Below are positions 18,679 to 46,080 of a stretch of 64,000 nt of DNA, piece after piece. Origin of the DNA: Umezawaea endophytica (GTDB lineage: Bacteria; Actinomycetota; Actinomycetes; Mycobacteriales; Pseudonocardiaceae); NCBI RefSeq assembly GCF_025061645.1, contig NZ_JANYMP010000002.1:622494-686493 (forward strand). The letters run 5' to 3'. Within the stretch, counting starts at the first letter, position 1; the number at the start of each line of letters is the position of its first letter. A model generated the notes under the pieces. That model was not told where the DNA came from. It was given only the letters and a program-made list of their open reading frames with translations, and ran no database searches. The translations under genes were made by a program, and so were the position numbers.

Positions 18679-18768
18679 CTCTTTGCTCTGCTGTACTTGC
18701 TCTGCTTTGCTCTACCCGCCTGAAAAGCCGATTGACCACCCACAGGCAGCCACGGTATCCCTAAAACC

Positions 18769-18883
18769 GTGGCCGATTTTACTTGGGGTTTTTGGCGCTA
18801 AACTCAGTCGGGCGGCAAGCTCTCCACCTGCCGTTTTGGCCCGACTAGCGCCAAAAAGAGGGGCCCCAAGTCAAATCGGCCAC
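18769..18883 (+). repeat. 115-bp palindromic intergenic element, copy 1
   Basis: Imperfect long hairpin. Outer arms GTGGCCGATTT and AAATCGGCCAC, then ACTTGGGG/CCCCAAGT after one mismatch. Next TTTTTGGCGCTA/TAGCGCCAAAAA with a GAGGGG bulge on the 3' side, then GTCGGGC/GCCCGAC. The apex carries a small GGCA/TGCC hairpin. It is identical over 115 bp to copy 2 (inverted) and has one difference from copy 3. It lies in a convergent gap between ctaF and the acyltransferase. The remaining bases of the 18631-18961 gap hold the ctaF terminator and C/A-rich sequence with two CCACGCTGGAACC direct repeats (18885 and 18909). Short ORFs across it are translation artefacts. Confidence 0.9.
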
Positions 18884-18961
18884 ACCACGCTGGAACCGGC
18901 ACTCAACCCCACGCTGGAACCGCACTCACCCAACCAACCCGACCAGCAGCTCAAGCGAGGA

Positions 18962-19633: not shown

Positions 19634-19787
19634 CGCTCCTCGCTCGCTCAAGGCTCGCAACGGGGTGACGCGGCCACCGGATCCGACCGCGTTCGTAGTA
19701 CCAGCATGAACCCGCATCGTTGCGGTGGCGTGAACCAGTGACTGAAACCTCAGCCAACAGTCCCCGAATCTGCCCGAACGGCGCAAT

Positions 19788-19911
19788 CGGTCCGTCGACT
19801 GGGCCGTCAGTTCGGCATCGGTCCGGTGGCTGGGCCGTCAGTTCGGCATCGGTCCGGTGGCTGGGCCCTCAGTTCGGCATCAGTCCGTCGGCTGGGCCTT
19901 CAGCTCGGTGG
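19788..19911 (-). repeat. Four 31-bp tandem units at the 3' end of trpD
   Basis: Units at 19788, 19819, 19850 and 19881 are each 31 bp and nearly identical, with a GGGCC-TCAGTTCGGCAT core. The last unit encodes the trpD C-terminal residues (TELKAQPTD and stop), and the first three lie beyond the stop. So the array looks like amplification of the trpD end. It lies in the 19634-19879 gap, which otherwise shows only the promoter side of the acyltransferase gene. Confidence 0.85.
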
Positions 19912-20929
19912 ACAGGACGGCCCAGCGCCGCAGCAGTTCCGCCGCCGCCCCGGAGTCGATCGCCTCACCGGCCCTGCCGAGCGCGCCCGCCAGGTCCGCG
20001 TGCAGGTCCCCTGACAACCCGCCGTGAGCCGCGATGGCCCCGGCGGCGTTGATCAGCACGGCGTCCCGCACCGCGCCGGGCTTCCCGGCGAGCAGTTCGC
20101 GGACCACCTCGGCGTTCACCGCCGCGTCACCGCCGCGCAGGTCCTCCGGCAGCGCCGGACGCACCCCGAGCCGGGAGGGGTCGATCACATCGGTCCGCAC
20201 GGTGCCGCCGTCGGCGACCCACACCGCGGTGGTCGTGGTCGTGGTGATCTCGTCCAACCCGTCGTCCCCGCGCACCACCAGCGCCGTCTTGCCCCGCCGC
20301 GCGAACACCCCGGCGATCAGCGGCGCGGCGTTCACCCGCGCGCACCCGACGAGGCCCACGGCGGGCTGCGCCGGGTTCGTCAGCGGCCCGAGCAGGTTGA
20401 ACACGGTGGGGATCCCGATCTCACCGCGGGTGGGCCCGGCGAACCGGAGCGCCGGGTGGAAGATCGGCGCGAAGCAGAACCCGACCCCGAGTTCCGCGAC
20501 GGTCGCCTGGACCCCCGCGGGCGGCAGGTCGATGGCGACGCCCAGCGCTTCGAGCACGTCGGCCGTGCCGCACTTCGACGACGCCGCCCGGTTCCCGTGC
20601 TTGACGATCGGCACCCCGGCGGCGGCCGTCACGATCGCGGCCATGGTCGAGATGTTCACCGACCCGGAGTTGTCACCCCCGGTGCCGACGATGTCCACGG
20701 CCCGCGCGTCCACGGTGAAGCGGCGCGCGTGCTCCAGCATCATGGTGGCGAACCCGTCGACCTCCTCGGGCGTCTCGCCCTTGGAGCGCAGCGCCACGAC
20801 GAACGCGGCGATCTGGGCGCTCGTCGCGGACCCGGTCATGACCTGGTTCATCGCCCAGCCGGTGTCCTCGGCCGAGAGGTCGACCTTGTCGACGAGCTGG
20901 TTCAGCAGCAGCGGCCAGGTTCTGGACAT
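19880..20929 (-). CDS. trpD: Anthranilate phosphoribosyltransferase
   Basis: Second step of tryptophan synthesis: joins PRPP and anthranilate. It has 349 residues. The signature blocks are DIVGTGGDNSGSVNISTMAA (PRPP-binding loop, about 82-101), KHGNRAASSKCGTADVLEALG and FAPIFHPALRF, with GPLTNPA in the middle. The ATG at 20929 is chosen from homology; only a weak AGG precedes it. It is downstream of a receiver-like gene by 10 bp. No trp leader peptide was seen. The last codons lie in a 31-bp tandem array. Confidence 0.95.
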   Translation of the reverse strand: MSRTWPLLLNQLVDKVDLSAEDTGWAMNQVMTGSATSAQIAAFVVALRSKGETPEEVDGFATMMLEHARRFTVDARAVDIVGTGGDNSGSVNISTMAAIVTAAAGVPIVKHGNRAASSKCGTADVLEALGVAIDLPPAGVQATVAELGVGFCFAPIFHPALRFAGPTRGEIGIPTVFNLLGPLTNPAQPAVGLVGCARVNAAPLIAGVFARRGKTALVVRGDDGLDEITTTTTTAVWVADGGTVRTDVIDPSRLGVRPALPEDLRGGDAAVNAEVVRELLAGKPGAVRDAVLINAAGAIAAHGGLSGDLHADLAGALGRAGEAIDSGAAAELLRRWAVLSTELKAQPTD

Positions 20930-26208: not shown

Positions 26209-26493
26209 TCAGCCTTCTTCGAGGCCGATGGAGAAGGCGGCTTCGGTGTCCCGCTTGGAGTAGGAGCGGAAGGAGATGTGGGTGTCGGTGTTCAGCACGC
26301 CGGGGACCTTGCTGATGTGGCCCGGGACCAGTTCGGCCAGGTCCTCGTGGCGGGCCACCTTGACGATGGCGATCAGGTCCACGTCACCCGCGCAGGAGTA
26401 GACCTCCGTGACGCCTTCGATCTCGGCGATCGTCTGGGCTGCGTCGGGGATGGATTCGGCAGCGGCCTGGATCAGCACGATCGCGTTGATCAC
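26209..26493 (-). CDS. Stand-alone Lrp/AsnC ligand-binding (RAM) domain protein
   Basis: A 94-residue protein made only of the AsnC-type effector domain (NAIVLIQAAAESI, DVDLIAIVKV, KVPGVLNTDTHISF), without the helix-turn-helix. Such proteins can bind amino acids and modify Lrp partners; the ligand here is unknown. The GTG at 26493 has AGGAGG 6 nt upstream. It converges with qcrB. Upstream lies G/T-rich DNA and repeat copy 2, so its promoter must be in or beside those. No full-length Lrp gene is next to it. Confidence 0.9.
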   Translation of the reverse strand: MINAIVLIQAAAESIPDAAQTIAEIEGVTEVYSCAGDVDLIAIVKVARHEDLAELVPGHISKVPGVLNTDTHISFRSYSKRDTEAAFSIGLEEG

Positions 26494-26645: not shown

Positions 26646-26760
26646 GTGGCCGATTTGACTTGGGGCCCCTCTTTTTGGCGCTAGTCGGGCCAAAACGGCA
26701 GGTGGAGAGCTTGCCGCCCGACTGAGTTTAGCGCCAAAAACCCCAAGTAAAATCGGCCAC
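26646..26760 (-). repeat. 115-bp palindromic intergenic element, copy 2 (inverted)
   Basis: On the minus strand it is identical to copy 1, base for base. It lies in the 26494-26883 gap between two minus-strand genes: 123 bp after the exonuclease/GIY-YIG stop and about 150 bp before the RAM-domain start. The rest of the gap is extremely G/T-rich: by hand count 95 of 120 bases at 26521-26640 and 86 of 120 at 26761-26880 are G or T. It has no gene I can support. Confidence 0.9.
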
Positions 26761-26883: not shown

Positions 26884-28587
26884 CTAGTGGTCGTACTCCC
26901 GGTACTGGTCTCTTCCGGCGTCGGCCAGCTCCACCCACTCTCGCCAGGCGCCTGCGGCTGCTGCTGGTGAGGTCCAGGGGGCTGAGCAGCGGACCAAGCG
27001 GGTTCCTGGGCGGTTCAGCCAGCGCAGTACCAGGCTCGCTTCCTCGGGTGTGGCTCCCCTGAGGGGGCCTTCTCCTGGCAGGACTGTTTCTGCCGAAGCC
27101 ACTAATGCGTCCACGATCGGTAGGTAGCGGGTGCCTCTTTTCGCTACCCCGGCTGAGGCCAGGCGGCCGTGGCGGACTACGGCGAATTCCCAGCCGCCTT
27201 CGCCGTCGGGTCTTGCGGCTACCAGTTCGGCCAATTCGGCCAGTGCGGCCAATCGTTGTCCCCGGTCCAGCACGCGGATCAGGGCGGCCATTCGGTCTCT
27301 GCGGCCCGCGGCTTCCTCGAAGCGGTGTGCTGTGGCGTAGGAGTCCAGTTGGGCGACCAAGCCGTGCAGTGGGGCTACGTCGCGGCCGGCTATCAGTTCC
27401 TGTAGGGCGGTTACGGCTGGGGAGTACTCGACTGCTGTTTGCTTGCCTGCGCAGGGGGCGGCGCAGCGGCCTAGTTCGTGCAGGGCGCAGGGGGTGCCGC
27501 GTTGGACCTTCAGCGGGATTCGTTGGGTGCAGGCGCGGATGGGTAGGGCTTCCAGGACCGCGTCTGCTGCTGTCTCGGCTGCTCGGCGGGATCTGAAGGG
27601 GCCCAGGGCGCCTGTGCGGGCTTCTCGCACCATGGACAGGCGTGGGTATGCCTCCTCCGTCAAGGTGAGCCACCAGGCGTTCTGGGGGTTCTTCGAGCGG
27701 CGGTTGTACGCGGGCTTGTGCGCGGCGAGCAGGCGTAGTTCTCGTACTTCCGCTTCCAGGGAGTGGGCGCACGAGATGGAGTCGACTCGGATGGCCAGTG
27801 CGACCATTTCGCGGAGCCTGGCGCGGCCCTCGCTGGCGGTGAAGTACTGCCGTACGCGTTTGCGCAGGTCTGATGCCGTGCCTACGTACAGGACCTCTTC
27901 GTTCGGGCCGCGGAACAGGTAGACGCCCGGTTCGTGGGGGAGGTGGGCGGCCATTTCCCGTTTGCGTCGTTGTTGGGGGGTTACCTCTGGTAGGTAGGCG
28001 AGCAGCTCCTCCAGGGTTTGGACGCCCAGTGGGCCTACCCGTTCCAGCAGGCGGTGCAGGACCTCGACCGTTGCGCGGGCGTCGTCCAGGGCGCGGTGGG
28101 TCGGGGTGGTGGCGGTGCCGAAGAGTTGGGCCAGTGCTCCCAGGCGGCAGCTCGGTGCCTCGTCGCGGCTGAGGACGCGCCGGGCCAGGCGGACCGTGCA
28201 GACCACGCTCGGTTTCGGCCAGTGGTAGCCGTGGCGTTCGCACGCGGCCTTCATGAAGCCCACGTCGAAGCCGGAGTTGTGCGCCACCAGCACGGCGCCC
28301 GCGGCGAACTCGAGGAACGCGGGGAGGACCACATCCATGCGAGGTGCGCCGGTCACCATGAACTGCGTGATGCCCGTCAGGGCCACGACCTGCGGTGGGA
28401 TGCCCCGCTCCGGGTCCACCAGGGTCGCGAACTCGCCCAGCACCTCGCCGCCGCGGATCTTCACGGCGCCGATCTCGGTGACCGCGTCGTCGTTCGCGCT
28501 GCCCCCGGTGGTCTCCAGGTCGAAGACCACGAACGTCGTGTCGCGAAGCGGGGTGCCCAGTTCGTCGAACGAGAGTTGCGCGTTCAC
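26884..28587 (-). CDS. DEDD 3'-5' exonuclease fused to a UvrC-like GIY-YIG nuclease domain
   Basis: A 567-residue protein. The N-terminal exonuclease (about 10-175) has FVVFDLETTGG (D and E), AHNSGFDVGFM and THRALDDARAT. It is followed by a UvrC/Cho-like GIY-YIG domain (about 215-300) with EPGVYLFRG, VLYVGTASDLRKRVRQYF and the Glu of HSLEAEVREL. The C-terminus resembles the UvrC middle region (CALHELGRCAAPC) and lacks UvrC RNase H features. A role in DNA repair nicking and trimming is likely; Rv2191 has the same architecture. The GTG start at 28587 is inferred from the VNAQLSFDE N-terminus. The 3' third has relaxed G/T-biased third positions facing repeat copy 2. Confidence 0.9.
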   Translation of the reverse strand: MNAQLSFDELGTPLRDTTFVVFDLETTGGSANDDAVTEIGAVKIRGGEVLGEFATLVDPERGIPPQVVALTGITQFMVTGAPRMDVVLPAFLEFAAGAVLVAHNSGFDVGFMKAACERHGYHWPKPSVVCTVRLARRVLSRDEAPSCRLGALAQLFGTATTPTHRALDDARATVEVLHRLLERVGPLGVQTLEELLAYLPEVTPQQRRKREMAAHLPHEPGVYLFRGPNEEVLYVGTASDLRKRVRQYFTASEGRARLREMVALAIRVDSISCAHSLEAEVRELRLLAAHKPAYNRRSKNPQNAWWLTLTEEAYPRLSMVREARTGALGPFRSRRAAETAADAVLEALPIRACTQRIPLKVQRGTPCALHELGRCAAPCAGKQTAVEYSPAVTALQELIAGRDVAPLHGLVAQLDSYATAHRFEEAAGRRDRMAALIRVLDRGQRLAALAELAELVAARPDGEGGWEFAVVRHGRLASAGVAKRGTRYLPIVDALVASAETVLPGEGPLRGATPEEASLVLRWLNRPGTRLVRCSAPWTSPAAAAGAWREWVELADAGRDQYREYDH

Positions 28588-44126: not shown

Positions 44127-45091
44127 CGGTAGGCGTCGACATCGGCGGCACCAGCGTCCGCGCGGGCGTCGTCAACGCCGACGGCGCCGTCATCGACATC
44201 ACCCGCGCCCTCACCCCAGGCGAAGAAGGCCCGCTAGAAGACGCCATCACCACCGCGGTCGCCGAACTGGCCACCCGCCACCACATCTCCGCGGTCGGCC
44301 TAGCCGTAGCGGGCTTCGTGGCCACCGACCGCCGCACCGTCCGCTTCGCCCCCCACCTGGCATGGCGCCAAGCCCCAGTAGCCCAACGCCTCTCCCGCCG
44401 CACCGGCCTACCGGTAGTGCTGGAACACGACGCCAACGCGGCGGCACTGGCAGAACACCGCTTCGGCGCCTCCAGAGGCGCCAAGATCGCCGTCATGGTC
44501 GCCCTGGGCACCGGCATCGGCGGCGCACTGCTCATAGACGGCAAGGTCTACCGCGGCGCCCACGGCGTCGCACCAGAACTGGGCCACCTACGCTTGGTCC
44601 CCGACGGCCGCCCTTGCCCGTGCGGCAAGAACGGCTGCTGGGAACGCTATTGCAGCGGCACCGCCCTCAGCACCACAGCCGTAGAACTGCTGGCGAAGAA
44701 CCCCGGCGTCTCAACGGTCCTGGTCAGAGAAGCCCTGCACGACTCCCGCGCCATCACCGGCAGACGAGTAGCAGCAGCAGCCCGCGACGGCGACCCACTG
44801 GCCCTACGAGCCATGGCGGACCTGGCCAAATGGCTAGGCGACGGCTTGGCCTTGGTCGCGGACGTCTACGACCCGGAAATGGTAGTGATCGGCGGCGGAG
44901 TCTCAGAATCCGCACCACTATTCCTGGACGACGCCCGAGAACGCTACGCGGAAACCATCACCGGCGCAGGCCACCGCCCATTGGCACGAATCCGAACGGC
45001 CCAATTGGGAGACGACGCAGGCTTGGTAGGCGCAGCAACACTTGCACGCGACCTGGCAAGCCACACCACCCCCAACGGCCGAAAGCGCTAG
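44120..45091 (+). CDS. ROK-family sugar kinase (glucokinase-like)
   Basis: 323 residues. The ATP site is DIGGTSVRAGVV (about 7-18), then EHDANAAALAEHRFGA, GTGIGGALLIDG and the zinc block ELGHLRLVP ... CPCGKNGCWERYCSG (about 155-185). No helix-turn-helix is present, so it is a kinase rather than a repressor. Sugar specificity is not decidable; glucose is usual. The GTG at 44120 overlaps the previous gene by 7 bases. The last ~850 bases use many A-ending codons (CTA, GTA, GCA, CCA, AGA), rising toward repeat copy 3. Confidence 0.9.
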   Translation: MLTVGVDIGGTSVRAGVVNADGAVIDITRALTPGEEGPLEDAITTAVAELATRHHISAVGLAVAGFVATDRRTVRFAPHLAWRQAPVAQRLSRRTGLPVVLEHDANAAALAEHRFGASRGAKIAVMVALGTGIGGALLIDGKVYRGAHGVAPELGHLRLVPDGRPCPCGKNGCWERYCSGTALSTTAVELLAKNPGVSTVLVREALHDSRAITGRRVAAAARDGDPLALRAMADLAKWLGDGLALVADVYDPEMVVIGGGVSESAPLFLDDARERYAETITGAGHRPLARIRTAQLGDDAGLVGAATLARDLASHTTPNGRKR

Positions 45092-45231: not shown

Positions 45232-45346
45232 GTGGCCGATTTTACTTGGGGTTTTTGGCGCTAAACTCAGTCGGGCGGCAAGCTCTCCACCTGCCGTTTT
45301 GGCCCGACTAGCGCCAAAAAGCGGGGCCCCAAGTCAAATCGGCCAC
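45232..45346 (+). repeat. 115-bp palindromic intergenic element, copy 3
   Basis: Same structure and orientation as copy 1, with one difference: C instead of A in the 3' bulge (GCGGGG versus GAGGGG, at 45322). Homology with copy 1 extends outward through CCCTAAAACC on the left and ACCACGCTGGAACC on the right (about 45222-45360). A second CCACGCTGGAACC follows at 45366. It sits in a convergent gap. The remainder of the 45092-45427 gap is C/A-rich with no supported gene. Confidence 0.9.
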
Positions 45347-45427: not shown

Positions 45428-45883
45428 CTACAGGACCGCCCCGTCATCCCATCCGGAGTCCGGCGGTGGACCGGGCTTGACCCGCATCACCAGCCACCCA
45501 ACCCCCCCGCACAACACCACGAGCGCCACCGGCACGCTGATCTGCGTCGACAGCCCGAAGAGCTGCGGCACCACGAGCAGCACCACACCCACGACGATGA
45601 TCACCAGCGCGGCGATCGTCCCCACCCGCAGCCGGGGCAGTGGTGGCGGGTCCGGCGGCACGAAGTGCTCGTCGTCGTCCTCGTCGTCCGGTTCGGGCAC
45701 CGCGACCCGCGGCTGCCCCTCCGGTCGGATCCCGGCGGCCACCGGTTCGTCAGCGGGTTCGTCGAACGAGGGGGGATCGGGCCAGTTGGCGCCCATCCCG
45801 TCCCGTTCCAGGCTCGCGACGATTTCGGCGAAGGCCGCGTCCACGTCCTCGGGGCCGTCGGTCGAGTCGCGTCGGGAATCCAT
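45428..45883 (-). CDS. Small membrane protein of unknown function
   Basis: 151 residues. The first ~85 are acidic and Pro-rich (SLERDGMGANWPDPPSF, PEPDDEDDDEHF), followed by two hydrophobic helices (about 98-117 and 125-143). A short cytoplasmic tail rich in Pro and Asp ends it. The ATG at 45883 is chosen for GGAG about 7 nt upstream; longer frames have no such site. It is divergent from the acyltransferase gene at 46.1 kb and converges with the ROK gene across repeat copy 3. It may be part of the envelope gene set, but no role can be given. Confidence 0.78.
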   Translation of the reverse strand: MDSRRDSTDGPEDVDAAFAEIVASLERDGMGANWPDPPSFDEPADEPVAAGIRPEGQPRVAVPEPDDEDDDEHFVPPDPPPLPRLRVGTIAALVIIVVGVVLLVVPQLFGLSTQISVPVALVVLCGGVGWLVMRVKPGPPPDSGWDDGAVL

Positions 45884-46080
45884 CGGCGTGCTCCAGCCCT
45901 CCCGTGTCCGGGCGTCGTCTTCTTCCCTGTCATCGTCCCACGCGCGCCCGGCGTTCCGGGCTCCGGCAGCCGGGCGGATGTGGACCCGCACCTACTGGCA
46001 ACGCGCGTTCGTTGTGCCTTGTGCCGTCGGCTACGTAGGCTGAGGTCGGATCAAGGTCGGTGAGGGAGGCGCTCCCAGCA

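Follow-up and report, generated by a model that had tools for sequence, protein, structure and literature searches.

A strongly covarying family of extragenic hairpin repeats, possibly REPIN-like, behind genes of Umezawaea and other Pseudonocardiaceae

REP sequences are short palindromes with a GTAG-type tag, the ERIC or IRU repeats of enterobacteria are extragenic imperfect palindromes of about 127 bp for which we know of no transposase, and integron attC sites are imperfect hairpins with extrahelical bases, located in cassette arrays, which keep their structure while their sequence varies and are recognised as folded single strands. The element studied here, an imperfect hairpin found three times in a 64-kb stretch of DNA (64,000 nucleotides, hereafter the window), is by these descriptions similar to ERIC/IRU in its palindromic form and extragenic position and in having no known transposase, and we know of no cross-genus covariation in ERIC of the depth seen here. 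It is similar to attC in forming an imperfect hairpin with extrahelical bases and in keeping structure over sequence, but it is dispersed, whereas attC sites are found in cassette arrays. REPINs combine extragenic inverted ends with a hairpin-forming spacer that shows compensatory changes, as set out in the retrieved part of PMC3116915, and the present element shares with the REPIN/RAYT system of Pseudomonas described there its extragenic location, high copy number, conserved inverted ends and a spacer capable of forming a hairpin with compensatory changes. However, its arms are not REP palindromes, as on inspection GTGGCCGATTTTACTTGGGG is not self-complementary and contains no GTAG, and it has three stacked stems, conserved asymmetric bulges and A/C-rich, T-poor flanks. 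The retrieved part of PMC3733652, in which the GTAG tag also appears, places GTAG- and CGTC-tagged REPs mainly between convergent or tandem genes near 3′ ends, as in the present family, and gives the CGTC type likewise as lacking a dedicated transposase; unlike the present element, those REPs are units of 20–40 bp with a tetranucleotide tag, and GT pairing in stems, the frequency of which is cited for them there, is scarce in the present hairpins. The literature searched yielded no account of a repeat of this kind in Pseudonocardiaceae, and the retrieved part of the RepRanger paper (PMC12306157) mentions neither Pseudonocardia nor Amycolatopsis nor Saccharothrix.

The three copies lie at 18769..18883 (plus strand, 115 nt), 26646..26760 (minus strand) and 45232..45346 (plus strand), as stated in the initial annotation, and copies 1 and 2 do not differ over their 115 nt, while copy 3 departs from them by the single change of GAGGGG to GCGGGG inside a bulge. 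It had also been claimed that the copies are outside genes and adjoin the 3′ end of at least one gene, and this holds for all three, each of which is in such a spacer. Copy 1 separates ctaF from a convergent acyltransferase gene; the neighbours of copy 2 are an AsnC-like gene (26209-26493, minus strand) and a called gene, also on the minus strand, that ends at 26884; and copy 3 follows a ROK-family gene (stop at 45091) at a distance of 140 nt and has on its other side a called minus-strand frame at 45428-45883, overlapped by a frame at 45428-45991 without Pfam match. In copy 1, on the plus strand, the 5′ outer arm (18769..18788, GTGGCCGATTTTACTTGGGG) contains the motif TTKAC-NN-GGGG and is followed by the 5′ half of the middle stem (18789..18799), the sequence of which varies among subfamilies and genera with pairing retained, the 5′ bulge AAACTCA (18800..18806), the inner stem GTCGGGC/GCCCGAC with the apical stem-loop (18807..18845), the 3′ half of the middle stem (18847..18857), the asymmetric bulge GAGGGG (18858..18863) and the 3′ outer arm (18864..18883, CCCCAAGTCAAATCGGCCAC). 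Family members are about 115–125 nt long and have, from the outside inwards, the outer stem, the middle stem, a 5′ bulge (e.g. AAACT), the inner stem and the apical stem-loop. The paired blocks comprise outer arms of 20 bp with one T.C mismatch, a middle stem of 11 bp, an inner stem of 7 bp and an apical stem of 4 bp; the outer-stem mismatch is at one fixed place and mostly T.C (123 of the 176 Umezawaea copies defined below). The 3′-side bulge (A)GGGG is immediately 5′ of the outer-stem CCCC, and most cross-genus rows have (A)GGG(G) before CCC(C). Moreover, the short parts that are alike across genera are TTKAC-NN-GGG(G), the GGGG/CCCC bulge and GTCAA, with drift even there in some genera. Pairing stops abruptly at the base of the outer stem in the window's genome, as 76 of 83 copies match at 5 letters outside the core and 3 of 83 at 6 letters.

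Copy 1 with its flanks was folded against 200 shuffles as control, and the predicted energy was -67.9 kcal/mol (z -7.40) as RNA and -73.6 kcal/mol (z -6.95) for the complement, none of the shuffles folding as well on either strand; the four paired blocks, the GAGGGG bulge and the small apical hairpin described for the element earlier were recovered in this fold. Covariation, which the initial annotation had proposed as a check, is deep. In an alignment of 34 sequences (33 from Umezawaea and one from Labedaea), 96.2% of cells were paired and double changes occurred at 20 of 38 pairs, with a covariation score of 0.234 vs 0.078 in shuffles that leave relatedness in, and no shuffle of 500 scored as high; sliding was used as a second control, both here and for the cross-genus set. 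In 42 cross-genus sequences, which were left when 13 reverse-strand rows of 55 had been removed before counting, and which lean to pairing because the alignment was fitted to the model, double changes occurred at 35 of 38 pairs, the score was 0.747 vs 0.184 shuffled, and several pairs were found in all four Watson–Crick types. Twenty-one Labedaea copies were collected by the arm motif without requiring middle-stem pairing, thus with less bias toward pairing, and in the best of ten registers 10 of 11 middle-stem pairs formed in nine copies and all 11 in twelve. The letters thus differ between species, and the predicted folded shape is kept. An Rfam scan of the window at gathering scores gave no match, and a scan of 20 loci at relaxed E-values gave none above cut-off at any element, so that, the literature searched being likewise silent, the earlier statement that the element was not recognised stands. 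In the latter scan a mir-3479 match adjoins one element without overlapping it, and a SorX match overlapping the element in locus L264 was rejected as an identity, being sub-threshold (24.5 of 46.6 bits, E 0.13). A tRNA search of the window found none.

Three copies in 64 kb was right but understates the family. In the window's genome, a draft of 11.02 Mb in 65 contigs (G000), a covariance model (better strand per place) found 83 full copies and one partial copy, and a pattern scan of the loci likewise gave 83. A DNA search of this genome with the element gave 43 matches, with 40 candidates scored, and a search with the arm alone gave 88 forward and 87 reverse matches, compared with 5 and 0 for a reversed control pattern. 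A second Umezawaea (G002, one contig of 11.79 Mb) has the element at 90 places by the covariance model (better strand), and 81 of these were analysed, six being left out before the pattern scan and three being missed by the pattern; from Umezawaea tangerina DSM 44720 (G001), 12 copies were used from the many matches listed. The Umezawaea set is therefore 176 copies (83 from G000, 12 from G001 and 81 from G002). The search of relatives, also proposed earlier, found related hairpins in 48 of 297 Pseudonocardiaceae genomes, belonging to 9 of 46 genera, at 12 scored candidates per genome, Labedaea rhizosphaerae being among the carriers. In an order-level sample searched with a second model (9 candidates scored per genome), 12 of 397 genomes had matches, namely 11 Pseudonocardiaceae, including three outside the 48 carriers (G142, G159 and G190), and G397, which is outside this family and has one weak but similar hairpin (L353, 1490-1630) that is possibly a divergent member or could instead be misbinned DNA in a 78%-complete draft genome. 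Among 396 genomes at phylum level (again 9 candidates scored per genome), only G000 itself and G709, another actinobacterium, matched, and the G709 match (L354, 1490-1627) was rejected as a member because it is an unrelated, near-perfect palindrome with arms of about 60 bp. Within these samples, the family was found almost only in Pseudonocardiaceae. Copies within 400 bp of each other formed eight doublets, five in G000, two in G002 and one in G001, all of them inverted.

As main explanation we consider a REPIN-like family of hairpin repeats, spreading genome-wide and persisting at 3′ ends, to which we give an even chance. In the well-sampled genomes the family is present in dozens of near-identical copies of genome-specific sequence, like a population of REPINs; copies would arrive in spacers behind genes and persist wherever no promoter follows them, and the predicted folded shape with its defined bulges is kept rather than a fixed sequence. 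Copying may occur via a folded single strand, which a trans-acting enzyme would recognise, and both mobilisation and function are what we infer for the element. Against this explanation, the analysis connected no mobilising gene with these repeats. The Y1 transposase PF01797 was absent in all three Umezawaea, where the earlier proposal to look for a RAYT gene thus came up empty, and in the one Labedaea examined; overall it was absent in 29 of the 48 carriers and present in 19, where it may be of RAYT or IS200 type, by a model that also matches 5 of 14 control genomes. A REPIN proper was hence rejected for Umezawaea, and the absence of Y1 transposase there and in the 29 carriers is a further difference from REPIN/RAYT; any trans-acting enzyme in Umezawaea is probably not a Y1/RAYT transposase. 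No transposase near the copies was found among the best 25 of 199 and the best 25 of 230 neighbour families, which were all ordinary (143 of 143 neighbour genes scanned from G000 and 148 of 154 from G002, with 22 from G001 left out).

The initial annotation had suggested that the outer arms could be terminal inverted repeats of a MITE-like element, and a classical MITE, descended from a DDE transposon that shares its terminal inverted repeats, would account for the 20-bp inverted arms, the extragenic position, the high copy number and an element-free site. The inverted arms stand, but we consider a MITE very improbable, because no clear target-site duplication was found at 83 + 81 copies and no longer element with the same ends was found among the 100 arms listed, of 175, in the draft genome G000. 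Among those 100 arms, all exact matches, 96 pair at 74–79 nt, and the other four are explained by an inexact partner in a full copy (two), a truncated copy and a contig end; moreover, covariation extends to the internal stems, for which a MITE would have no need. The largest excess of direct repeats (30 observed vs 19.8 expected, 3 letters, at unequal offsets) is ascribed to subfamily flanks. No excision product was seen either, and both negatives also count against REPIN-like spread.

Gene neighbours were taken from a gene caller trained on these loci, and for none of the 176 Umezawaea copies did the overlap with a called gene exceed 10 nt. Both neighbours were known for 166 copies (one was unknown for the other 10), of which 71 were convergent, 89 tandem and 6 divergent, while the spacer available was 8% convergent, 55% tandem and 37% divergent in a small baseline of 45 element-free spacers of at least 150 nt, drawn from the window and 18 U. 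tangerina loci. Of the 89 tandem copies, 72 were closer to the 3′ end of the upstream gene (median 139 vs 412 nt), and 60 were in transcript direction vs 29 opposite (p = 0.001). Likewise, the 27 matches in other genera (one Labedaea) and the 21 Labedaea copies showed no gene overlap above 15 nt, and none of the 18 matches and 15 Labedaea copies with both neighbours known was divergent. The element is found behind rnpB in all three Umezawaea, at 38, 109 and 381 nt, on the minus strand behind a plus-strand gene, and in locus L247 it is 131 nt behind 5S rRNA. This placement brings in the main rival explanation, a functional 3′-end element, i.e. a structured RNA acting as terminator, 3′-end stabiliser or barrier to convergent transcripts, which would be copied because it is useful, with folding selected in each copy. 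We regard it as tenable if somewhat improbable: the position at 3′ ends, the strand and distance bias of tandem copies and the copies behind rnpB and 5S rRNA argue for it, and the 29 antisense tandem copies argue against it, as do those adjoining rnpB. Spread of the REPIN-like kind and a function at 3′ ends are not exclusive.

The base changes give a mixed picture for a structured RNA. G.T pairs made up 2.3% of outer- and middle-stem cells vs 9.3% in the RNase P RNA of 27 carrier genomes, a different molecule with pairs chosen by RNAalifold in 27 of 28 sequences (L333 left out), and the scarcity of wobble pairs argues against a structured RNA. Distinct events within Umezawaea were 28 G.T and 22 A.C, so no strand stands out, which also speaks against the 3′-end element, and across genera they were 14 and 4, with the plus strand favoured, which speaks for it. 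In the 12 nt that follow the hairpin, TTTT was absent from the element strand in all 176 Umezawaea copies; on the other strand such runs occurred in 16 of 83 copies of G000, again in favour of the 3′-end element, and in 0 of 12 in G001 and 0 of 81 in G002. An intrinsic terminator was thus rejected as a general feature, the T-run being confined to a minus-strand minority (16 of 176, all in G000). Hence, of the earlier suggestion of a role in 3′-end formation or as a structured RNA, the strong 3′-end position is retained, and the T-run counts on the element strand and the rare wobble pairs weigh against it. Together, wobble scarcity, event counts and T-run counts lean towards a constraint that may act on DNA or on a double-stranded form. 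One such possibility is a DNA-architecture site, where a topoisomerase or nucleoid protein would bind a cruciform or palindrome lying between convergent transcription units, with which the near-strict Watson–Crick symmetry, the nearly equal G.T and A.C events within the genus and the enrichment between convergent genes are consistent. It is unlikely nevertheless, since the asymmetric bulges and 5′/3′ differences are retained across genera, copies in G002 show no replication-strand bias and have an uneven density along the chromosome, and we know of no binding protein for such a site.

The flanks bear on how the copies came to their places. Upstream (18720..18768) and downstream (18884..18961) of copy 1, the plus strand is A/C-rich, the upstream flank lying in a stretch for which the orthologous spacers in G001 and G002 have no equivalent and the downstream flank containing degenerate CACGCTGGAACC units. 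In general, the flanks on the element strand are A/C-rich and T-poor (T 7–8% in G000 and 8–11% in G002 over the first 40 nt on each side) independently of gene direction, and element-free spacers are balanced. Where the elements of two copies were 98% alike or more (353 pairs in G000 and 29 in G002, from up to 3000 random pairs per genome), the first 40 nt of flank were only 64–85% alike and further out likeness fell to near background, so that about 40 nt per side are apparently carried along with the hairpin and decay afterwards. The hairpin is far better conserved than this co-inherited flank, which suggests constraint or gene conversion acting on each copy rather than passive insertion, and counts in favour of the 3′-end element. 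In the orthologous spacer of copy 1 the element is absent in G001 and G002, where 71 and 102 nt separate the aligned blocks vs about 330–350 nt in the window; the terminator is kept there, and the window spacer also has an ordinary terminator, which, like the lack of an Rfam match above cut-off, argues against the 3′-end element. With this element-free spacer, the 83 copies and the deep covariation, the early proposal of recent spread or selection gains support.

The nearest copy was in the same genome for 83 of 83 copies of G000, 78 of 81 of G002 and 10 of 12 of G001 among those compared, and only 10 of 83 G000 copies had a neighbour gene in common with a compared G001 or G002 copy, again against the 3′-end element. 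Among 17 cross-species pairs with a common neighbour gene, each copy had a closer match inside its own genome in 16, the exception being G001_2/G002_0 (97% alike). In 2 of the 17 pairs the partner was the best match in the other genome, and in one pair the second best, so that shared descent can be seen to some extent. One and the same spacer may be occupied in two or three species, mostly by an element of the type of the respective genome, which random insertion alone does not predict. This fits a history in which copies inserted repeatedly at favoured places or underwent gene conversion within genomes, together with a few old insertions that are shared. Selfish spread and host function could also be merged, in a structure-addressed mobile repeat for which putative non-HUH/Y1 machinery would read the folded single strand with its bulges, and which would have been kept across Pseudonocardiaceae as a boundary at transcript 3′ ends; we hold this combination to be doubtful.

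Pseudonocardiaceae are known for their antibiotic producers, and the present family adds to them a large, strongly covarying group of nucleic-acid elements without Rfam match above cut-off. Since a REPIN-like population exists without Y1 transposase in 29 of 48 carriers, the question of what copies orphan REP-like repeats becomes testable. Moreover, two Umezawaea genomes each provide some 80–90 natural hairpins, located for the most part at gene ends, as material for studies of 3′-end formation. In G000, a run of N is found inside one element copy (L181, G000:C4) and a contig end inside another (L182, G000:C9), and in other draft genomes some matches are close to contig ends; the hairpin may break assemblies, because such runs and ends fall in or near copies. 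The window also contains other repeats, namely four tandem 31-bp units (19786-19909, 84–100% alike) that overlap the low end of a called frame (19880-20929, minus strand), and a 234-nt direct repeat (1616-1849 and 2000-2233, 80% alike) with both units in one long open frame, which perhaps represents repeated domains within one protein.
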